NCBI GenBank assembly: GCA_947330515.1
Contig: CAMZOE010000046.1
Coordinates: forward strand, 1 to 53,579
Length of the DNA: 53,579 bases
Source: an uncultured Mycoplasmataceae bacterium
Lineage (GTDB): Bacteria; Bacillota_I; Bacilli_A; Mycoplasmatales; Hepatoplasmataceae
Direction of reading: 5' to 3'
Part shown: in pieces, positions 1,617 through 46,162 of the stretch
How the letters are laid out: every line of letters begins with the position of its first letter
Position numbering within the stretch: the first letter of the stretch is position 1
Notes under the pieces: model-generated
What the model was told of the DNA's origin: nothing
What the model saw: only the letters and a program-made list of their open reading frames with translations
Database searches by the model: none
Translations under genes and position numbers: made by a program

Positions 1617-3428
1617 TTAGTCTTCTTCAATAAATGTTTCTTGAAAAAGATCTTCTTCATAGCTTGTATAAACATCATCATAATTATCATATTCATCAAC
1701 ATAACTATCATTAAAGTTATCTTTATGATTAGTTCCATTTTCTTCTAGTAATTGAATTTCAGTACTTAACATTTCATTGAAAGTTTCAAGGTAATTTGTA
1801 TCATCAGAACGTTTTTTATAAATAAACATTAATCATAGAAAGAGAATTAATCCAATAATTAAAATAATTATAATAATGGTAATTACAATCGCAAGTGGAT
1901 TAGAATGTCAAAAAATTATTTTTTGAATTTCTCCATTTGCTTCCTCATCAATAATTGCAATAGAATAAGTTTTTTCTTTTGAAATTTTAAAGCTTAAAGT
2001 TTTATTATCTTCAAGTGTTTCTTTTAAAATAGTTTTTCCAGATTTTGTTTGAATAACAACACTTTTTCCTTTTAAAGAATTATCAAAAAGATATTTACTA
2101 TTATAGGTTAATTGATAAGAATTAGTATAAAGATGATTTTCTTTAACATTACTTTCTGATAAAATAAATTTCACTGATTTATTAATAACTATTGGAAAAT
2201 TTTCATTTTGAAGATACATAAATTGAACATCATCAAATAGTTTTTTTTGTAAAGTAATATCTTGGAATTTTTTTGTTAATATTTTTTCTATCGAAAGATT
2301 AATATTAGTTCCATTTGGATCTGTAAAGTTAAGATTGCTATTTGGTTCTTCTTCAAAATAAATATTTTCCGCACTAACATTGTTACTATTTACTAATGCT
2401 GTTGATGAAGTAGCAAATCCAAAATTAGTATCTTTACCATCATAAAAATCGGAAATTAAAGTTTTTTCCATCATAATGTCTGCAATATTTATTTTTGATG
2501 CCCCAATATTATTAGCAACTAAAGCATAATGTTTTTCTGAAAATAAAAATGGAGATAAGGCATTAAAAGTTATTCCATGATAATAACCATTACTTATATC
2601 TAAAGAAGTTGTTCCTTTAGCATCAGCAATCAATGGAGAAAAAAATCATTTTGCACCATAAGAATTATTATTATTTGATAATAAAAAATAAGTAAAATTA
2701 ACATTTTCTAATCAAAATCCGTTAATAACAATTTCCCCTTTTGCTTTTCCGATTAATCCTAAATTTACAACATAACTAGAATCATTAATAGCATTTTTAA
2801 AAATTAAATTATTAATATTTAGATCTTTAACAACAATGTTTTCTAAAATATCGTTTTCTGATGTTGCTAATAATATTCCTAAATCCTCTTCTTTTGATGA
2901 AGAATCTAAATCAAAGAAAAGATGATTAAGTTTATAATTATTGATACTTATATTTTTATATGTTGAATTAGAAGAAGAATAAACAAAGAAAGGAATATTT
3001 TCTAAGTTAACATTTTCAATTTCAACATAATTTAATAAACTGAAAACACTGTCTTTCTTTTGTAAAGCGTCATTGTATCCATAAGCACTATAATCTGCAT
3101 AATATTTTGATCCTTTAGTGACAGCATCATTTCTAATAGTATGACCATTAAAATCAATTATTTTATGACTATCTATTGTCCCTTCAAGAGAAATTGCTTC
3201 TTCGCTACCAGAAAAATCAACATCGCTTTCAAGAGTATAAAGATTATCATTTTTTTCTCAATCATAATTATTAATTTGTTGAACAAATTCTTTACTAGTG
3301 ATAATTTCATTAGTTTCTGTAGTTGTTTTATTCATTTGAAGATGTTTAGGAGAAATTATTGTTGTTCCTAATGAAGATGTAATCATTGTTCCTAACAATA
3401 AACTACTCATTAATATTTTTTTCTTCAT
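1617..3428 (-). CDS. Surface protein: N-terminal signal/anchor, large ectodomain, C-terminal TM and acidic cytoplasmic tail
   Basis: Read through TGA: MKKKILMSSLLLGTMITSSLGTTIISP…DVDFSGSEEAISLEGTIDSHKIIDFNGHTI… to TM (HSNPLAIVITIIIIILIIGLILFLWLMFIYKKR) and TAA at 1617; RBS AGGAGAATAC. Confidence 0.8.
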
Positions 3429-5575
3429 TAGTATTCTCCTTCTTCATAAGCATATTGTTCAGAATCAATATAACTAGAAATAGCTAAATAAGATGTATGA
3501 ATATGATCAAATTCTTCTCTAGAAATATTTCCTTTTAAAAATTCTTTAAGTTTTTTATTGTAAACTTTTTGAAGTTTTGCATGTGTTGCTGTTTTAGGAA
3601 GTGATAAAGTTGCATAAAATTCATCGATTTCATCAAAATCGTAATGATATTGATTAAAACGTTCAGAAAGTTCACTATTTTCAGCAGTAGCAACTTTTCC
3701 TTTTTTAACCATAAAGGTAATGAATAAAATAATAATAATTAGAATAATTAAAATTATAAGAACAATAGCAGTAATAATTGTTGGATATAAATAAGAAGGA
3801 ACAGGTGTAACTTCTAAAGCAACAGGATTATTAAGCGGTATAACATTATTCCCTTGTTTTAAAGAAACTTTTAAATAAAATTGTTGTAATCTTGTTTTTT
3901 TAGGTTTTTTATATTTAAAATCTATTTTTTCATTAAATGAATATTCTTCTTGAGAGATAACTACTAAAGTATCAGCATTAGCAGTTTCACTACTTTCCAT
4001 TCTATCTAATTCAATAAGTACTTTTAAATTATCATTTATACGAACAAAACCAGGTTTTAATCTTCCTTCAAATTTTATCTTACTTCATTTATTAGTTAGT
4101 TTTGCACCTTCTGTAATTGGTAAAATAATTGGTTCTGGAAGCTCCCCACTATTTAAAAAATAAAATTCATTATTAAAATTTTTGTTAAAAAAGGATGATG
4201 AAGTTGCTTTTTCAAAAGAAATACTATTGTATCCTTCTTCACTAGATTCAACAAAATAATTAATCTTATTTTTACTACTTAAACCTGCATTAAATAATTC
4301 TTCTTTTTCTTTGTCTTCAGAATATTTAACAAATGTGATTTTACTTTTATCAACTTTTCCACTAACTTTTCCATAATTTAATCTTTTAGAAAAATCATGC
4401 ATATCAGAATAAATAAATGACATTGTCATTATTCAAGTGGAATTAACTAATTTTGTTTCCTCGCTCAAGAAAACCGTTGAAGTAAAAACTCTTCCTACAA
4501 AAATATTATTAACAGTTATGTTTATTGGTTCTTGATCAAAAGAAATTAAAGAGTTTTGTCTATTACCTTTAATATTTGTATCATTATTAGAAATAAATTT
4601 AATTTCATCAAAATAAATATTATTAAAACTAGAACTTCCGATTAAATTTTGAAAAATTCCAAAATTCATTGATACGTCTTGGTTAACTTGAATTCCTCGT
4701 TCATTTAAAGAAAATTCAATATTATAAAAAGCTAAATTATCAAAATTTAATTTAGAATTTTCATCATTACCAAGTCTTGAAAACAATGCTATTGTTGTTT
4801 GACCAACTTTTTTAATACTGTCGTAATTATAAATATTTTGACCAATATAATAATTAGAAAAAGCTAAATTACTAAAATCAACATTATTTATTTGATCCGC
4901 AACTACTCCAATAAATTTTTCTTGTTCATTTAAATCAGGTTGAGGTGAATAATTTAATACAGAACCTCAATATAAATTAGAAACATTAGTATTACTAAAA
5001 GAAGAATCAGTAATAGTTAAATGTTCGATATCATATGCTAAAAAAGGAACATTAATAAAATTAGCATTTTCTAATGTTAAATTATCAATATCATAAAATC
5101 AATATAAATAATAAAAAGATATACGAGGAGTGTTAGCTACTCCATTATCTTTATCATATTTTACTTGACTAATAATTTTTTGATTATTTTTTGTAAATTC
5201 ACCAGATTTTTTACTAAATAAAGGTTGATAAGTTTTATTAAAGACATTATGTCCATTAAAATTAATAGTAACATCTTTATAACCATGAATAGCATAGTCA
5301 TTTGAAAAAGTACTTTGATTTAAAGAACTATCTTTAAAATCGCTTAAATCTATATCTTTTTCAATAGTAACGTTTACATTTCCCTCTGTTTCGTTTGCTT
5401 TAATGTATTCACTAAATGTTTTAGAGTTATATATCTCTTCGTTTGAATTTTCAATCGTTTTTTGACTTTGACTAAATTCTTTATTTTCTAAAAAGAAAGA
5501 ATTACTAAAAGTAAACAACGAAGAAAGTAAAATTACATTAAAAAAAAGAAGTTTTTTTTTCATTTTTTTTCTCAT
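3428..5575 (-). CDS. Surface protein paralog-like to the downstream gene; C-terminal TM followed by degenerate J-domain-like cytoplasmic tail
   Basis: MRKKMKKKLLFFNVILLSSLFTFSNS… DIDLSDFK…AIHGYKDVTINFNGHNVFNKTYQ…; TM PTIITAIVLIILIILIIIILFITFMVKK; tail DEIDEFYATLSLPKTATHAKLQKVYNKKLKEFLKGNISREEFDHIHTSYLAISSYID. Confidence 0.8.
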
Positions 5576-10139: not shown

Positions 10140-11927
10140 TTATTCTAAAAGACTATTAAAAGTTTTTTTATATTCATTACTGAATTCATAACCATAAAGT
10201 TTCCAATGAACATTTTCTTTTCATTCATTATCATTTTCAATAGCTTCAAGACTTTCACGTAAAGTTTCTGATTCTTCAATATTTAACAATTCATTCTTTT
10301 GGATAATTTCAACAATTTTATTAATGGTTTTTGTTTTTGTTTTTGAATTTTTATGTTGAATTCTTTGTGAAAAACTTTTCTTTTCGGACTTTAACTTCAA
10401 ATCACTTAATTCAAAAGGAAGATAATAATATTGATGAATTAAGTTTATTCATTCAAAATTTATTTTTTGTAATTCCAAAGAACTTTTTTTAAAAAAAACA
10501 AAATTCTTATTTGTCATTATTTCATAATCACTAATTTTTTTCTCATCTCCTTTGCTTTTAGAAGTGGAGTTTAATTCTCCATCACTTGAGTAAGTAAATG
10601 TTTTTTGTTCTACATTTTGAATATAAGGGTTAAAATAATCTAGTTCTTTTTTATTAGTGGTAGAACCGAATAAAAAAGAATAACCAAAATTATTTGCATA
10701 TTTTTCTATATCTCCATATTTTTCTTCAAATTTAAAAATTGATTGAACTCCAAGATGAAGAAAAATATTTTTTGATCTTAAAGTATCTAAATAATCACTT
10801 AATTCATTTATTTTTGCCAAACCATTAAATTCATCAAGAAATAAAATTAAAGATTTTTCATTAGAAACATTTTCTTTTTTAAATTCTATTAATTGACTAA
10901 TAATTAAACTAATTAACTTATTATTTCCTTCATTATATCCATTTGTTTGAAGAAATAAAACTGATGGTGAAGAAAAAAATTTTTCAAAATCAAAAGAAGA
11001 AAAAATAGTTAAAGTTTTAATAACAATATTATCAATTTTCTTAAGTTCCGAATCTAAAGATGCTTTGATTTCACTAAAAGATCTTGATTCCATTAAATTT
11101 TTAGTTTTAGAAATTAGATTTTTTCTAGCAACTGTTTCCTTTGAAGAAAATTCTTTCATAAATGAATCTTCAGAAAGTAAATCTTCGAAATTTTTTCACA
11201 AATCAATAAAAGTTGATAAATTAAAATTTTTTTTAGAAATATTAACTTCAATCATATACTCAATAATACTTTTCGAAATCAACCTTGAGGAATTAACTCA
11301 ATAGTCATCTTTTTCTTTATTTTTAGGAAATAATTTTTCAAGAAAATCTTCAATAATAAAATCAACCATAAATTTATTTTTTCGATTATCGAAAATATTT
11401 TTCATAATATTAAACTGGTGAGTACTATTTTTTTCACGTCCTTTAATAAAATTAAAGTTTAAACGATAAATAGAATAATTATGTTTTTTTAAAAAACCTG
11501 ATAAATCTTGATAAAGTGAACCATAAGAATTGTGTGAATTTAAATTGTTCTCATTACTTTTTAAATCATTTATTATCATAAAAGGTTTATCTTTTACTAA
11601 CGCATTAGTAATGATGTTAGTCTTAAAATATTTTTCAGTTTTACCTGTTCCACTCCCACCAACAATAAAGCTATGACTTAGTTTTATATAATCAAAAATA
11701 ATATAATTTTCTTTAGAAAAATACTTTGACCCAACTATTTGATGCGGAACTCCTTTTTTATAATTTTCTTTTTCTCATAATTTTGATACTGATACTTTTA
11801 AAGAATTTATCTTTAAGTTTTTTTTAAAATTTAAATCATTTTTTGTTTTTTTCTTTGTCTTTGTCTTTGTCATTAAAAAAATAAAATAAACTAAAAACAA
11901 AATTATAACTATTGATAAAATAAGCAT
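10140..11927 (-). CDS. VirD4/TraG-like type IV coupling ATPase
   Basis: N-terminal TM, Walker A SFIVGGSGTGKTEKYFKTN, Walker B SLILFLDEFNGLAKINELSDYLDTLRSKNIFLHLGVQSIFKFEEKYG, NFGYSFLFGSTTNKKELDYF; RBS GAGGAAAATAATT. Confidence 0.8.
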
Positions 11928-14804: not shown

Positions 14805-15539
14805 ATGAACGAAAATTGAAGTATAGTTGATAAAAAGTTAATTATCAATAGAACATTATTATTAGCATTTTCTAGTATCGGAGTAATATTTTGGTTTTTT
14901 ATAAGCTTTTTTCATTATGAAAGTTCACATGATTTTTTAGTGGAAATAATGTACTTTACTATTTGATCAAATATATTTGTTTTTATCTGATCTATTTTTG
15001 GATTTGCAGCAATTATTAGTAAACAAAATTTTTTAGAAAATAAAATTAATCATTGATTTTGAAAAGGAATTCCATTTATTTGAATAACAATTACTTTTTT
15101 TGTTTTTAATTTTTTATTACTTCCTGGAAAAATTATTCACAATAATTTAAATTTTAAAGAAAGTATTCTTTATATTTTTGGAATTTCAATTGTTCATCAT
15201 TTTATTGTTCCGTTATTAATGATAAATGATTATCGCATAACAGGAATTAATGGAAACAATAAAGAAGAAAATGAATTATGAAGTAAAAAAGAAATTGTAA
15301 AAAATACTTTGTATTCAATAATCATTCCTTTAGTATGATTAATATTATCATTAATATTAATTTCTCAAAATATTATTGGTCCTCAATATCCTTTTATGGA
15401 CTTATTTGGAGTGAGTAGCAATGTTTTAGCAGTAAATATTATTATTTTAATTTTAATATCAATTGCTTATCTTTTTTTTACTATAAGTTTATTTTTATTT
15501 AGTAATAAAAAAACAAAAAAAAGCAATAATTATTATTAA
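14805..15539 (+). CDS. Multi-span membrane protein, possibly DUF1600 / FAR-17a-like
   Basis: MNENWSIVDKKLIINRTLLLAFSSIGVIFWFF…IMYFTIWSNIFVFIW…ISIVHHFIVPLLMI; RBS AAGGAGATTTAA. Confidence 0.7.
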
Positions 15540-16858
15540 TCATCTCAAACTTTAAATTTAATTGTGTCCCTTTTGCTTTTGATTTTATCGTTTTTCTTTT
15601 TAGTTAAACTATCTAAATCAATTAATAGAGATTGATCAAATTTAGAATTAACCTTAAAAACAATATCTTTAATATTGTTTTTTTTATTTTCTATTTTTGT
15701 TTCATTAAAAAGTTCATCTCTTAAATCATTAATTATTTTTTGTTGTAAATGATAATAATTATTTTTTAAATTAGAAACCCCAAAAGTCAAATGAATAATT
15801 TTTTTGATTGGAAATTTTTCCAATAAAATCAATGCATGATTATAAAAAATAGAAGCATCATTTATATATACTCCTAAGTTTTTTTGTTTAATAAAAGTTT
15901 TTTTATTATTGTGACCTTTATCATTAATCAATTTAACTTTTATAAAAATTGTCTTTGCTCTTAAATCACGATAAACAATTTTATTAGAAATTTTTTTAAC
16001 AAAATTCAATAATTTTTTTTCAAGTTCAATTTGTTGTAAAGGAAAAATAAAGGTTTCACCCGTTGAAAAGCTTTTAGATTTATATTCTTCAATAGAATTA
16101 ATTTTTTCATTACTATAACCATTTGCCAGTTTAATTAATTGAACAATTTTAATCCCAAAAATATTTTTATATTCTTCAAGTAAAAGAAAATCATTTTGAA
16201 TTAATGCTAATTCACCAATAGTATTAATCGAAAGCTCTCTAAGTTTTTCAACAGTTTTTTTTCCTGCACCATATAATTCAGAAATATCTCTTTTTCATAA
16301 TTTTTGTTCTATTTCATTATGATAAATAGAATAAATCCCCATTGGTTTATTCACCTTTGAAGCAATTTTTGATATTAAGATATCGTTTCCAATTCCTATA
16401 CTTACAGAAATATTAAATTTTTTAAAAATTTCTTGTTGCAATGTTTTTGCAAACTCTTCAGGTGATACATCTTTATCAATTAAAATATTACTAACTTCAA
16501 AATAACATTCATCAATTGAAGCAATTTTTATTTTCTTTACTATAGAGAAAACATAAGTGAAAATAGCTTCACTTATCTTTAAGTAAAATTCCATATCTGG
16601 TTCAACAACCAAAATTTTAATATTATGTTTTTTTTCTAGTTCAAAAACCTTATATAAAGGCATTGAAGAATAAATCCCTAATTCTCTTGCAAGATAATTT
16701 GCAGTAGAAACAACTCCACGATTAACATTATGTTTTAAAATATGTTTACCAATAACTAATGGCTTAAATTTAAAAGAAGGATTTCGAAACTCTTCGCATG
16801 AAGCAAAAAAAGCATCAAAATCCAACGTAAAAAAAGTTTTCAATTGTTTAAATATCAA
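15536..16858 (-). CDS. dinB: DNA polymerase IV-like Y-family polymerase (DinB/ImuB-type)
   Basis: FFTLDFDAFFASCEEFRNP, GVVSTANYLARELGIYSSMPLYKVFEL, KIASIDECYFEVS, VSIGIGNDILISKIASKVNKPMGIY, ELYGAGKKTVEKLRELSINTIGELA; likely TTG start. Confidence 0.9.
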
Positions 16859-18003: not shown

Positions 18004-19530
18004 ATGAAATATTTTAATAATATTAATCTTAATATTTTTAATAATCCAGATTTTTATTGACAAACACTTATTTTTATGATAATTGCTTATTTAATAGGTT
18101 CTATTAATTTTGGTCATATTTTTTCCAAAATAAATAAAACAGATGTTGGAAAAATTGGATCAAAAAATTATGGAGCAACAAATGTAGGAAGAAATTTTGG
18201 AATTAAAGGTTTTATTTTTGTGTTTGTAGGTGATTTTTTAAAATCATTTGTTGCCTTAGGAATTATTCTCGGAATTAGTTCATTAGCTGGATGAAAAAGT
18301 GGAAGTATAGGGTTTGCTCTATTTTTTGTCTTAGTTGGACACATTAAGCCAATATACTTTAAATTTAAAGGTGGTAAAGGTGTTTCATCATTTGTAGCAA
18401 TTGCTTTGATTCTTAATTGAGTAGCGGCACTTTTTGGGTTATTAATTTTTGTATTAATTCTTTTAATCTCAAGAAGAGTTTCAATTGCATCTGTATCATT
18501 TGCAATCTCCGCTTCTATATTTATTTCTTTTATTCCTTTTTTAAATATTGATGGTTCTATACTTCCAGAATGATCAACAGGAATAGATACAATAATCGCT
18601 TCATGATTAAGTACTATTTTAATAGTATGAAAACATAAAGTAAACCTTAAAAAGGTTTATACAATGGAGGAATCATATGTTTCAAAACTCGATGATGTAA
18701 ATGTTAATTTTAAACAAAAAGTAATGAGACTATACAAAAAAGCTATTCGTAATTTAAATATTTATTTTTATAACACAAAAACTATTATCAATGAAATTGA
18801 TAATAATAACAATTTTCTAAATAATGATAAAATTAAAAATTCAAAAATAAATATTTTAGATAATGAAGAAATGATTAAACCTTATAAAATTGATGAAAAA
18901 CAAGAAATTATTGTAACTGGAACTAATTTTTCTCCTTCATCAAAAATGAATTATATTTTTGAAGTAAATAACTTAAAAAATATTAAAAAATATGAAGAAA
19001 CAATTATTATGTACAAAATTAAAGATAATGATGATTTAAATGATTTAAAAAAACAAATTAATAAATATAATATTTTAGTAGATGTAAGTAAAGGAAGATT
19101 TTTTGCAGAAAAAGCCATTGCTTTTGGAGCAAAAATGTTAAAAATAGATCATAATTGTAAAGATAAAATTTCAATTATTAAACTATGTCAAAAAAAGAAA
19201 ATACCTTTAACATTACATTTTTCTTATGAAAAAATTGATTCTACTTTTTTAATAAAAAAAGAATCAAAAGAAATAATCTTTTTTCACTCAATTTCAGAAG
19301 AAATTTTAAAAATTGAAGATAAATACAAAACTTCTGATTTAATTACAATTTCGATAGAAAATAATGATGATATAAACATTTTAGAAGTTCTAGAAGTATT
19401 TTCAATTATCTATAAAAATCCGATTATAGTAGGAGTAAAAAGAGAAGAATATAGAGAATATATTAATCTTATTTATAACCTAAAATTAATCTCCTTAAAT
19501 AACTATATTCTTTTCCAAGAAAAAGATTAA
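18004..19530 (+). CDS. plsY: PlsY acyl-phosphate glycerol-3-phosphate acyltransferase with in-frame C-terminal extension resembling a degenerate IspG/TIM-barrel domain
   Basis: AYLIGSINFGHIFSKINKTDVGKIGSKNYGATNVGRNFG…GHIKPIYFKFKGGKGVSSF… continues without TAA/TAG into the 288-aa ORF at 18664 (frame checked codon by codon 18241-18666). Confidence 0.9.
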
Positions 19531-21693: not shown

Positions 21694-24204
21694 TTAATAT
21701 TCTTTGTTATCTTGAATTTGTTCTTTTCTTAGAATTAAATGTTTAGTAAAATCATCAAAATCAACTTTAAATAAAATATTGTTTTTTTCATTTAAATAAA
21801 GAAAATTTCCTCTTGCTTTTTGAAAATGTTCTATTTCATATTGATTAAGCTTTTGCATTTTAGTTTCTAATAAAGAATTTAATAATTTAATTTCTTCTGC
21901 TTCAATTTTTCCTATAAATAAATTAGAAGTATTTGAAAAAATAGATTGTAGTAAATTATTATCTTCAGTACTAAAATCAGAAATATTTTGTGTTCCTAAC
22001 ATAATCATAGTATTAAATTTTCTTGCTTCTCTTACCATTTTAGAAATAACTGTTAAAGTTTTAAAATCATTAAAAAAGAGATGAGATTCATCAATTATTA
22101 TTGATAAAAACTTATTATTCTTAAAATCGTTTTCATACATTGTACCATTTATATAATCCATAATTAAAAAATAATTTGCTTTCTTTAAATTTTTATCACT
22201 TGTTTTTAAAATTTCAAAAGTATTAAAAATTATTAAAGGTTCATCGATTTCAATATTTTGTTCTTTATTAAAAATATTATATATTCCACCAATAAAAGGT
22301 GATAATATTTGTCTTTTAATATTTTCATCATGAATTCATGCATTAAAAATTGCAAAAGTTGCTTGTTTTTCTAATAATTTAGCTTTATTTACAAATTCTT
22401 CTTTTTTATAAAATTCATAAAAGTCTACAAAAAATAATTTCAAATGTTTTCTGAAATTAGAAAATGTTTCGATATCATAATAAATATTATCCTGAAATAA
22501 AATTTCAATAAAATTAGAGATTAAGGAAATTTTTTCATTAAGATGATCATTTAAAGTTTTTTGTGGATCAACATAATTAAAAGCAAAAGGATTAATTATA
22601 TTTTGAGAATTAAAATTAATTTTTTTACCAACAAAAAAATCAAGAAAATAATCATACTCATTATGAGGATCAATAATAATAACTCTTGATTTTGATAAAG
22701 TCAATAATGTTAAAATAACTAATTTCATCAATGTCGTTTTTCCTGAACCAGTTTTTCCAATTACTAAATTAATAAAATTCGATCTATTAGTTAAATTAAG
22801 AGGATTATAAACAAAAGGTTTATATTCATTAAGAAATCCCAATAATAGTCCTTTTTCATCTATGTAATTAAAATTAACAAAAGGGAAAAATCATGCAATA
22901 GTCCTTTGTGGCATTAAGAAATATTCCTTTTCTTGTCTAAACTTTAGAAGTGATTCTATTTTTTCGTGTTGTTCAAACCATACAGAATTAAGTTTAATTG
23001 AGTTCATTTTAAGAATATTCTTAATATCGCGATAAACTTTTTTGTATTCTTCTTCAGGACTTGAAATAATAACATCAATCTCACATTTAATTAAAGTATC
23101 AAAACCTAGAATTACATCAGATAAAACTTTACGATTAGAATAATAATCTGATTCACTTTTTATTTCTTCTTGAACTTTTTTAGTATCTTCAAAATTATTT
23201 TTTCTATTAGTTAAATATTTCTCATAAATTTTAACCGCTTTTGTTTGATCGGCTTTTTCAATAGTAAAAACAAAATTAGCATAAGGATTTAAAATAATGT
23301 CATTAAATCAAAACTCTCCTAAATCAACACCATTAAAATTAACCTTACTAATAGAAGATCTTTTTCTCTCACCAGGAATTTCTTCAAAATCAAAATAATT
23401 TTTATGTTCATTAATACCTGTTGTAGAACCTAATATTCTACTTAATAATTGTCTTTTAGAAATTTTTGATTCTTTAATATTTATTCCAATATCTCTTAAA
23501 ATATTTAAATTGTAATCAATTTCATTTTTATCTTTTATAGAATAAAATTCAAAATATAAATAAAAAGTAAAATCTTCTTTCTCTTGTAATAAAACTTTAT
23601 TTAATTCGATAAAATTTTCTATTACTAATGATTTATTTTTATCTTCTTCCAATTTCATTTGTTTTTGTAAATATAAATTATTTTTTATCAATGGAAAAAT
23701 ATTGTGAGTTTTAATAATTTTTAAAGGAAATTCATTTACTCCTAAAAATTCATTAAAACGTTGAACAATCTCTTCTTTTTTTGGACCTAAAAAAGAAGAA
23801 ATATCAATTCCATTGACCACTTGATAAACAATGTGTTTAGAATTAGTTTCTTCTTTATAACTTTTGTCTTCATTATTATTTATTTCATTATTTTCTTCAT
23901 CATTATATTCATTAATCAAATAATCTAATGAATATTTTTTTGGTTTACCAAGAAAAGAAAGTCATAAAGAAATAATTTCATAACCTTTATAATTATTAGT
24001 TTCTCAAATTAATCAAAAAAAAGAAGTTCAAGTGAAAAATACTGTTAATACTTTCCATAAAATTGATGGAAGAAAAACAATTACTAAAATAGTAATGGTA
24101 ATTGTTGCTAACAATAAAATAGTATCAATAATTGTAATATCTCCAAAAATAGAAGAACGATATAAAATAAATTTTCTTTTTTTTCTAATACCACTTTTAA
24201 ACAT
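21694..24204 (-). CDS. VirB4/TraE-like conjugation ATPase (HerA/FtsK superfamily)
   Basis: Two N-terminal TMs; Walker A NLVIGKTGSGKTTLMKLVILTLL; Walker B KFLSIIIDESHLFFNDF; TMIMLGTQNISDF; MINxF-type finger region NPFAFNYVDP. Confidence 0.82.
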
Positions 24205-24237: not shown

Positions 24238-25569
24238 TTATTTTTTTGTTCCTGGTTTTTCAAATCTATTCAAGTTTCTTAAATTTCTTTGTTCATGAAT
24301 CCTTGTTTTAGAAGATAATTTTTTAATTGATTTTGCACCATAAACATAAGGTGTAGCTAATAATTTTCCTTCTTTTCATAAGTTTTTTTGATAATGTTGA
24401 GTTCTTGCTGATAAATTTGAAATTGTAGTAGCAAATCCAACATTAGTGCCTGCCCCGAATATAAAGGCAATTAATGCTTTAGAACTTTCTAACATATATG
24501 CCCCAGAAATAATCATAACAATAATGAAACCTTCTTGAATCATACTTGAAAAATTAGTTAATTTGTTATATGCAAATGATGTAATATAAGGCAGTGAAGC
24601 AATGTATAATGTATAACCTCCAAAAAGGAAAACAACATTGAAAATTTTATAATTAATAACTTGAAATCAAAATTTAAATCTAGTCGAATCATCTGAAACA
24701 CTTATAGAAATAACAATTGGGGAAACAAACATTAAAATGAAAATTTCATAAATTCTTATCCCTAAATCAAAAACAATTCATGCAATTAAATAAGTTAATA
24801 TTGAAGTTGTAATCATAAAAACAATAAAAGAAAAGTTTTGTAAATCAGCATCAAAAGGATTTAATGGAATTGTAGAAAAATCATGCGGATAATCATAAAA
24901 AGAATTATTAAAAATAATTAAAGCTAAATTACTATCAGATTGACTTGATAAATGAAAGATAATAGAAATTAAAAAAATTACTAAAACATTTAAAAAGAAA
25001 ATTACATAAGGAACTAAAATTATTAAAAGTAATAGTTGAAAAATATTAAAAAATAAGTTACTCCCTTCTTTTTGAGCATTACCCCTTGATCAAAATATTT
25101 TAAATAATTTAATTAAAATAAATACAGTACCTACTGCTATTAAAATAACAATACTTCATATTAAAAATGTTTTTGCAGAAATTGAAAGAGCGTTTAAAAT
25201 AATTGGATAAAAACTCATAATATAAATTAAACTTTGTAAAAGGTTTAAAATTCAAACAATTGCAGGAACAAAAATAATATATAAAGCCATTAAAATTCCA
25301 GTAATAATTTCTATAATTATATCTTCAAAACTTCTAGTATTTTTGATAACGGTTCCACCATGGAAAACAGTTCCACTAACACCATAAATTAATCCTAAAA
25401 TTATAGCAACAAAAAAGAAGAATATCAAAGTAAATTTAAAGATTTTTTTAAAATAAAAAATAAAAAGTTTAAAATATTTTTCTAAATTATTTAAAAAAAT
25501 TGGGTATCCTTGATTATTTTTTTCTTGATAATTAATTTGGATTTTATTTTTTGTTAATTTTTGTTTCAT
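24238..25569 (-). CDS. VirB6/TrbL-like polytopic membrane protein of a conjugation/T4SS-like apparatus
   Basis: Six or more hydrophobic segments, basic soluble C-terminus (LWKEGKLLATPYVYGAKSIKKLSSKTRIHEQRNLRNLNRFEKPGTKK*); located directly between the VirB4-like and pilin-like genes. Confidence 0.65.
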
Positions 25570-43089: not shown

Positions 43090-43875
43090 ATGATTAAAAA
43101 TAAATTTAACGTCTTATTCGGAGGAAGTTTATTCTTAGGAAGTTCAGTTTTATTCGCTAATCCAGGAAAAGATTTTTGATTATTAATAGCTTCTTCTGTG
43201 ATTTTAATTATTATTATAATTTTTTTATTAATTTATTTATTTCGATCAAGAAAAAATATCTCTGAAGAAGAATTAAAGCAAATTAATAAAATTTCTTTAG
43301 AAAATAATTCTTCTAAAAAAGAATCAATTAACAAAAAAGATAAAATTATTGAAGAAATAACAATTGAAGAAACATATGATGATATTAAAACTACAACAGT
43401 AAGTAAGATATTTAATGAGCAAAAAGAAGAAGAAATAATTTATGAAAAACAACAAGTAAATGAACAATTAACAAAAGAAAATAATAAAACTTACAATGAA
43501 GAAAATCAACAAGTAAATGAACAATTAACAAAAGAAAATAATAAAACTTACAATGAAGAAAATCAACAAGTAAATGAACAATTAACGAAAGAAAATAATA
43601 AAACTTACAATGAAGAAAATCAACAAGTAAATGAACAATTAACGAAAGAAAATAATAAAACTTACAATGAAGAAAATCAACAAGTAAATGAAGAAATAAT
43701 TCTTTCTAAAAATAAACTTAATAATAGTAAAAAAGAAAATATTGAAAAATTAATAAAAGAAGAAGAAAAATTTGATTTAAGTATGAACATTGATTTATTT
43801 TCAGATTTATCATGAGAATTAGATAATGATGAACAAAAAATAATTGATAAAATTAAAAAAGATTTAAATACTTAA
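43090..43875 (+). CDS. Membrane-anchored protein with tandem 19-aa repeats
   Basis: MIKNKFNVLFGGSLFLGSSVLFANPGKDFWLLIASSVILIIIIIFLLIYLFRSRKN… then QQVNEQLTKENNKTYNEEN x4. Confidence 0.8.
43450..43692 (+). repeat. Tandem 57-bp coding repeat, 4 full copies plus partial
   Basis: caacaagtaaatgaacaattaac(a/g)aaagaaaataataaaacttacaatgaagaaaat at 43450, 43507, 43564, 43621; partial at 43678. Confidence 0.97.
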
Positions 43876-43933: not shown

Positions 43934-45391
43934 TTATTTGTTCCACGTTCTATTTTTTTTCTTATGTTTTGGTTTTTTTTCTTTTACCACAGATTTTTTA
44001 TTATTTTTATTACTAGTAATATTTATTAAGATATGTAAAATTTCATTACTCATTTGTTTTTTTGTAATAGTTTTATCTTTGTTATCACTTAAAAACTTAT
44101 TTATTCTAGTTGTTAAAATTCCATCTAAAAGTTTTAACTCAATTAATCTTTGTAATTCAATAGTTTGAACTGTAGAAAGTTTGTTGATTTGATTATTAAT
44201 TATTTCTTCAATATCAAAAATTTTCGGATTATTAGTTGCAATACTATGATCAACTAAATCTTCTTGAAGAATTTCAATAGTTGTTTCTTCTAGAGGATTA
44301 TTAATTTCAATAGTTTCAATACTAGGTGTTTCGATAATCTCTTCAACTACTTTTATATTTTGTTTTTCGAAATTATCAACAGAATCAACAATATCTTTTA
44401 CATTAAATTTAATTTCAATTGTAGCTTCATTTTGATCAATTGTTAAAAAATTAATTTCATATAAATTTAGATTTTTATCTTCTAAAAAATTAATTTTTGC
44501 ATTTTCTTTAACTTCAATTGGTTTAATTTTATTTTTAAATTTAATTGATTCTGTAATAATTTTTTCCATCACTTCACGAAGTTTTTTAATTGTTTCTTCT
44601 TTAGAATAATTAAATGTTTTAGAAGCTTTTTCTTTAACTGTTGTTTTAGTGTGATCATATGTTTTAGAAACTTTTTCTTTAACTATTGTTTTAGTATGAT
44701 CATATGTTTTAGAAACTTTTTCTTTAACAGCAGTTTTAGTGTGATCATATGTTTTGGAAATCTTAGATTTTATATTTTCTTTTGCATCATCATATTTTTT
44801 TGCTATTTTATTTTTTGATTTTTTTTCATCACTGGAAATACTTTTATTTACTTCTTGAATAATTGCTTCTTCAGTAAGATCAAAAGAATCTTGTTCTTTG
44901 ATTCCACTAGCAATATCAATAATTGTTTCTTCAATAGCTTCATCAAAATCTAATTTCTCTAAAGAAGCAAAAAATTCTTCCTTCTTATCTTTTTTTGTTT
45001 TATCTTTTTTATTTAAGAAAAAGTTTGGAACTGTGGATTCTATGAATGAATATAATGTTTTTACTTTTTCAATCTCTAAAGATTCTAAAGAAAATTTAGA
45101 TTCTAAAGCAAAAAGTTGACTAAGTTTAATAGAAGGAGTGAATTTTGTATATTCTATATTATTTTTATTTAATAATGAAACAAACTCTTCATATTTATCT
45201 TTTTTAAGATCCTTTTTAGAAAAAACTACTCTCATTTTATAATTGAAATTTAATTTAATAAAATACTTAAATAGTTCATTAAGTTCATTTATTTCATCAA
45301 TATAATATGTTGAAATATTATGATTAAATTTTGTATCAATTAAATACTTTGTACGTTTATCAGTAACAAAAATAATTTTTTTAGGACTCAT
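43934..45391 (-). CDS. Hypothetical charged protein with LEA/coiled-coil-like 15-aa repeats
   Basis: Uninterrupted 485-aa ORF; KISKTYDHTKTAVKE KVSKTYDHTKTIVKE KVSKTYDHTKTTVKE KASKTFNYSKEE. Confidence 0.75.
   Translation of the reverse strand: MSPKKIIFVTDKRTKYLIDTKFNHNISTYYIDEINELNELFKYFIKLNFNYKMRVVFSKKDLKKDKYEEFVSLLNKNNIEYTKFTPSIKLSQLFALESKFSLESLEIEKVKTLYSFIESTVPNFFLNKKDKTKKDKKEEFFASLEKLDFDEAIEETIIDIASGIKEQDSFDLTEEAIIQEVNKSISSDEKKSKNKIAKKYDDAKENIKSKISKTYDHTKTAVKEKVSKTYDHTKTIVKEKVSKTYDHTKTTVKEKASKTFNYSKEETIKKLREVMEKIITESIKFKNKIKPIEVKENAKINFLEDKNLNLYEINFLTIDQNEATIEIKFNVKDIVDSVDNFEKQNIKVVEEIIETPSIETIEINNPLEETTIEILQEDLVDHSIATNNPKIFDIEEIINNQINKLSTVQTIELQRLIELKLLDGILTTRINKFLSDNKDKTITKKQMSNEILHILINITSNKNNKKSVVKEKKPKHKKKNRTWNK
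44615..44765 (-). repeat. Tandem 45-bp coding repeats
   Basis: ttttagtgtgatcatatgttttagaaactttttctttaac-type units at 44644, 44689, 44734 (period 45). Confidence 0.9.
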
Positions 45392-45401
45392 AAAATTAAT
45401 A

Positions 45402-46162
45402 TTATAAAATGATAAAAGAAAAAAAATTGCCTTTCGATAATTAATTTTACTTTTATTAATTTTTTCTAAATCTTTTTTAAAGCTATGAATTACAACTTCA
45501 TTATGTTTATTTCTATATGACTTATAAAAATTTCAATAATCTTTTTCACTAATTAATAAAGTTGATGATGATTTTACATTAATTAAAATTGTTAAAAAAG
45601 AATATTTTTTTAAAAGTAATAATTCTTTTTTTATTTCATCAGACAAAGAGTGATTTTGAAATAACTCAAAATCATTAATAAATAAAAGAATTGGTGCTTC
45701 AAGTTCTTTTTTATTATCTTCTAATAATCTATTAAGTAATTTAAAAAAAAGTAAAATTCTATATTCGTGAGAAAGATTATTTTCCTTATTTTGAAATCTT
45801 ATTGAAAAATCAAAATCATATTCAATTGCCTCTTCAGTGGTAGGTAATAAATTATTTAAAAAAATCTTAGCATACTCACTAATTTTTTTATTTTCTTGAA
45901 CATCTTGAACTTCAAAACCTTCTAAAATTGACTTTGTTAATCCTAAATCTCTAAAAATTCTACTTGAAAAAGGGAAGTTTTTTTTTGAAATAAAATCGCC
46001 CAATGATAAAGAATAAACTTTATATTTAGAATTCATTCTCATATGATTAATAATTAATTTAAAATCATGTTTTTCACTTGTATAAATAAAATTTAGCCTA
46101 TCCATGTGATCTATGATTTTTATATTTTCTTTCTTAATTAGTTTATTTTTATATGCAAACAT
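45402..46162 (-). CDS. Hypothetical soluble protein
   Basis: MFAYKNKLIKKENIKIIDHMDRLNFIYTSEKHDFKLIINHMRMNSKYKVYSLSLGDF… continues through one TGA to TAA at 45402. Confidence 0.65.

Follow-up and report, generated by a model that had tools for sequence, protein, structure and literature searches.

Gene Organization of the Locus

The window analysed here is a 53,579-nucleotide stretch, contig CAMZOE010000046.1 of a draft MAG assigned to genus g1 of the Hepatoplasmataceae (832,759 bases in 85 contigs, 83.9% complete). The family occurs in isopods, woodlice among them, and membership in it suggests an isopod host for this tiny-genome bacterium as well. Near one third of the way along the window lies an open reading frame whose first part encodes the acyl-phosphate:glycerol-3-phosphate (G3P) acyltransferase PlsY and whose second part resembles the N-terminal barrel of the isoprenoid enzyme IspG (Table 1). 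With TGA read as tryptophan, as in the mycoplasma code, it forms a single frame with no TAA or TAG. A translation of the frame with table 11 placed false stops at six TGA codons, every one of them within the PlsY half, and was dropped in favor of table 4.

Table 1. Features of the plsY fusion gene in the window
Feature	Position	Strand	Basis
Fusion ORF, 508 aa, PlsY plus IspG-like domain	18004..19530	+	Translation with table 4
PlsY domain, residues 27-217	18082..18654	+	PF02660, E=9.4e-38; residue alignments to aaPlsY
Asn/Lys-rich linker, residues ~218-282	18655..18849	+	Sequence; low-confidence region of the predicted fold
In-frame internal ATG, Met221, possible second start	18664..18666	+	AAAAAGG at 18649-18655, duplex energy -3.8
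IspG-like TIM-barrel domain, degenerate and lacking the Fe-S domain, residues ~283-502 (core match 290-479)	18850..19509	+	Sequence profiles, hhalign, predicted fold

An earlier note, made from the letters of the DNA, had described the PlsY core as joined in frame, without TAA or TAG, to a 288-aa ORF; this description holds, and the peptides it quoted for the extension are found in the 508-codon frame. The extension has the codon signal of the neighboring genes. Given the base composition, a stop-free run of 288 codons has a chance probability of ~4.5e-10, so its openness is not an accident. The junction itself is continuous coding sequence of uniform codon signal with no frameshift.

Other parts of the window were annotated by their appearance. 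A DNA polymerase IV-like gene (15536-16858, minus strand) lies near plsY, and a similar gene adjoins plsY in three other genomes, G009, G001 and G002 (loci L007, L032 and L033; by eye in all cases). Large ATPase-like and multi-pass membrane ORFs on the minus strand (10140-11927, 21694-24204 and 24238-25569) resemble, judged by eye, the coupling-protein, VirB4-like and VirB6-like parts of a conjugation system, possibly of an integrative element. Two neighboring, similar-looking minus-strand ORFs (1617-3428 and 3428-5575) each have a signal-like N-terminus and, at the other end, a transmembrane segment; the latter ORF ends in a J-domain-like stretch. Finally, an ORF at 43090-43875 (plus strand) carries a tandem repeat of ~19 residues, NEENQQVNEQLTKENNKTY, and one at 43934-46162 (minus strand) has repeated SKTYDHTKT-KEK segments.

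The PlsY Half

The fusion ORF is the sole PlsY match in its genome. It scores 130.3 bits against the G3P_acyltransf model, for which the cut-off is 24.1, and narrowly misses the cut-off of the NCBIfam equivalog TIGR00023 (125.5 versus 137.2 bits), a shortfall that concerns a curated naming threshold and no mechanistic feature. In PlsY of Aquifex (aaPlsY), the residues S35, R45, H92, K104, S142, H177 and N180 have roles in the G3P clamp and the phosphate hole (PMC5700162). By alignment, Ser35, Arg45, His92, Lys104 and Ser142 correspond to S53, R63, H113, K125 and S163 of the fusion, while the family alignment and the H-x2-N spacing equate His177 and Asn180 with H211 and N214. The residues through which the Aquifex enzyme binds G3P and acyl-phosphate are retained, and the PlsY half is probably an intact, working enzyme. 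Since PlsX is present in all ten Hepatoplasmataceae genomes and a pair of DegV/FakB-like genes in nine of them, the usual PlsX-PlsY route appears to be intact in the family. In the window genome, PlsX and two DegV/FakB-like genes were found.

An IspG-Like Barrel in the Extension

When residues 285-508 were used as the query against 242 genomes of the order, 17 weak matches were obtained elsewhere (E 4e-5 to 8e-3), 11 of which are true IspG proteins. The rest, which include Obg, TatD, RuvA and SecA, mark the noise level of this search. A match in G038 (E=1.4e-4) from a different search was an Obg GTPase and not IspG. With a profile of the 11 Mollicutes IspG sequences, the tail scored 26.0 bits (single-sequence E=2.6e-10), compared with a top score of 10.2 bits among 10,000 shuffles, at most 0.8 bits for other ORFs of the window and at most 5.2 bits for other ORFs of the retrieved loci. 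Because these 11 sequences had been found with the tail itself, a profile of 18 IspG sequences, which adds those found through Pfam, is the fairer test. Aligned to it with hhalign, the tail reached E=9.4e-7 and a score of 52.4, with no more than 23.5 in 200 shuffles, and among 273 ORFs scored with this profile it was the only one outside IspG to rise above noise. The earlier note had aligned the extension with the IspG pattern by eye and proposed profile and structure comparisons. HMMER and hhalign each reproduced the register of that alignment.

Standard database searches returned little. The Pfam GcpE model (PF04551) reported no match to the tail, which falls below its cut-off, and Pfam and NCBIfam scans produced weak, unrelated matches only (EF1_GNE, 0.007; MinE, 0.04), which were treated as noise. 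A sequence search of the PDB with the tail found only designed TIM barrels, over a single helix, and noise with the A2 profile. PHROGs gave no match to the tail, and a scan of genome_contigs with P0001 gave no relatives.

Structure prediction points the same way. The AF2 model made from the tail only is of low quality, with a mean pLDDT of 44.6; in one part it matches IspG (3noy, the fourth-ranked structure; 2.0 Å over 75 residues at a probability of 1.00). When the alignment included three IspG rows from viral_contigs, the model improved to a pLDDT of 61.2 and a pTM of 0.65, and its 13 best PDB matches were all IspG, a result that is partly circular because those three sequences were in its input. 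The beta/alpha pattern of the tail still predicts a barrel.

Probable Loss of IspG Catalysis and of the MEP Pathway

The domain had been called catalytically degenerate, with the Fe-S C-terminal part of IspG missing, and both points were borne out. Over the aligned region, 48 columns are invariant in the 18 Mollicutes IspG sequences; the tail keeps nine of them, and the other 39 are changed or missing. The lost residues include H83 (S362 in the tail), R101 (K380), K175 (E452) and E203 (R480). The ORF stops at 19530 without the C-terminal Fe-S domain and its CPTCGR and GC-VNGPGE motifs. Having lost the cluster domain and most of the invariant residues, the tail is very unlikely to carry out the IspG reaction, and we do not regard it as a working IspG.

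The genomic setting was surveyed as well. IspG was found in 14 of 58 genomes, and Dxr in exactly those 14. Neither was found in any of the ten Hepatoplasmataceae genomes, including that of the window, and IspH was likewise not found in the window genome or in the family. The MEP pathway, judged by gene content, appears to be gone from Hepatoplasmataceae.

A Separate Counterpart in Tyloplasma

The fusion was looked for in relatives, as the earlier note had suggested, and has been seen in this one draft MAG. No other complete Hepatoplasmataceae PlsY frame examined bears the tail; these frames are 238-281 codons long, a range to which PlsY of G002 does not contribute as it runs off the end of its contig. 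The IspG-like tail was also absent from every other Mollicutes PlsY frame examined. Since PlsY of Hepatoplasma lacks it, the domain is dispensable in sister genera. A scan of genome_contigs with the PlsY alignment returned distant PlsY proteins from many phyla and none from Hepatoplasmataceae. PlsY of G009 (L007:1348-2190) has a tail of a different sort, a Lys/Glu-rich repeated C-terminus that by eye is unrelated to the IspG-like one.

What the relatives do have is a separate gene. In all three genomes of genus g5 (Tyloplasma), an ORF of 137-138 aa directly follows plsY; in G008 the end of the contig cuts it short. The two frames overlap by ~17 bases in G004 and lie a few bases apart in G006; in G008 they seem to overlap, the start being uncertain with no ATG near the beginning of the frame. 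Pairwise dN/dS for this ORF is ~0.15-0.2, below that of plsY itself, with dS near saturation, and from these sequence comparisons the ORF is judged to be under purifying selection. With hhalign it matches the tail at E=6e-4 and a score of 29.8, as opposed to at most 19.1 in 200 shuffles, and matches IspG weakly (E=0.06) in the same register. The similarity to the tail is modest at the sequence level: in whole-genome searches, a profile built from the Tyloplasma ORFs alone failed to recover the tail at E<=0.05. Pfam gave nothing useful for these ORFs, and PHROGs gave weak matches only (E 0.014 and 0.028). When 324 genomes of the order were searched with a joint profile of the tail and the Tyloplasma ORFs, the matches included several true IspG proteins, five of them at L097, L100, L106, L109 and L112; the remaining matches were weak and scattered. 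Taking score, register and position together, the Tyloplasma ORF is a probable homolog of part of the tail. The module is therefore probably not unique to the window genome: an IspG-derived, PlsY-linked module is probably a neighboring gene in Tyloplasma, in a shorter and unfused version, and a fusion in the window genome.

Possible Roles of the Extension

On balance, we favor reading the protein as a probably working PlsY with a catalytically dead C-terminal domain, a descendant of the IspG N-terminal TIM barrel, which would serve as a scaffold or regulator outside isoprenoid synthesis. A binding, scaffolding or regulatory role would be the most economical reading of the tail, and it gains indirect support from the selection acting on the Tyloplasma counterpart. 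The IspG-derived module would have become linked to plsY and been fused to it in the lineage of the window genome. The general topology of PlsY, considered along with two published facts about the enzyme, would place the tail in the cytosol, beside the side of PlsY where G3P enters. These facts are its seven transmembrane helices and the access to its active site from the cytoplasm (PMC5700162). From such a position, the tail could scaffold or regulate acyl transfer, for example by docking PlsX, FakB or PlsC, or by sensing a ligand. More tentatively, a dead IspG-derived part or whole barrel may be a dedicated partner of PlsY in part of Hepatoplasmataceae, encoded beside plsY in Tyloplasma and fused to it in the window genome, that controls or scaffolds the first phospholipid step.

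Other explanations were weighed against this reading. One frame could yield two proteins, a PlsY that reads through and a soluble IspG-like protein starting at Met221, so that the tail also exists in free form. The AAAAAGG before this ATG, at a distance of 8 bases, has a stronger duplex energy than is seen at most internal ATGs (10 of 84 reach -4.0), and the related Tyloplasma ORF is a separate gene. However, there is no stop between the halves, and PlsY would keep its tail in any case; moreover, Met221 is seven residues past N214, the last ligand residue, and inside the usual PlsY C-terminus. A free form of the tail is a real if minority possibility.

It could also be argued that the tail is a functionless relic, tolerated after the stop that had kept plsY apart from an ispG-like gene in decay was lost. 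Consistent with such decay, few of the residues invariant in IspG survive, the MEP pathway appears to be gone, and sister genera lack the domain. The relic would nevertheless have to have kept 288 open codons with a normal codon signal and a pattern that still predicts a barrel, and its Tyloplasma counterpart is under purifying selection. We consider a relic unlikely.

That the tail belongs to a different TIM-barrel family, such as a dihydropteroate-synthase-like or aldolase-like one, with a likeness to IspG of general fold only, is improbable: non-IspG TIM barrels do turn up in the fold searches, and the sequence search with the tail returned one TatD, yet all TIM-barrel families compete in whole genomes and IspG still makes up most of the matches, the profile match is long and colinear, and IspG tops the second, partly circular, fold search. 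An assembly error, which the occurrence of the fusion in one draft genome might suggest, is most improbable in view of the unbroken, frameshift-free coding of uniform signal across the junction and the adjoining counterpart after plsY in Tyloplasma.

Comparison With Known Systems

We know of no accessory domain on PlsY, which is a small enzyme. In the literature searched, which covered few subscription papers, neither a PlsY fusion of this kind nor an IspG pseudoenzyme was reported, and the fusion is apparently undescribed there. A pseudoenzyme on PlsY, with a probable separate counterpart beside plsY in a sister genus, would offer a clue to how this step is organized or regulated in minimal cells. 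If the partner reading is true, the domain would be a regulatory subunit built from what is left of a lost pathway, and would illustrate how a gene of such a pathway can be kept for a new, non-catalytic use.

Measured against IspG/GcpE (PF04551; structures 3noy and 4mwa), the tail is colinear with IspG residues ~4-230, the TIM barrel, and is alike in predicted fold. It differs in the few invariant residues that it keeps, in having no Fe-S domain, in being fused to PlsY and in residing in an organism in which Dxr and IspH were not found. The 137-138-aa ORF, present in Ca. Tyloplasma litorale and one related genome and cut by the contig end in a third (G008), likewise sits directly after plsY and is in register with tail residues ~335-407 by hhalign, possibly to ~470 by MAFFT, whereas it is a separate and shorter gene in which the first and last barrel strands are missing by alignment. 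Compared with PlsY (PF02660; structure 5xj5), the fusion shares the family match and the ligand residues and differs in adding a soluble C-terminal domain of ~290 residues. We regard the fusion as a PlsY variant, not as a system of a new kind.
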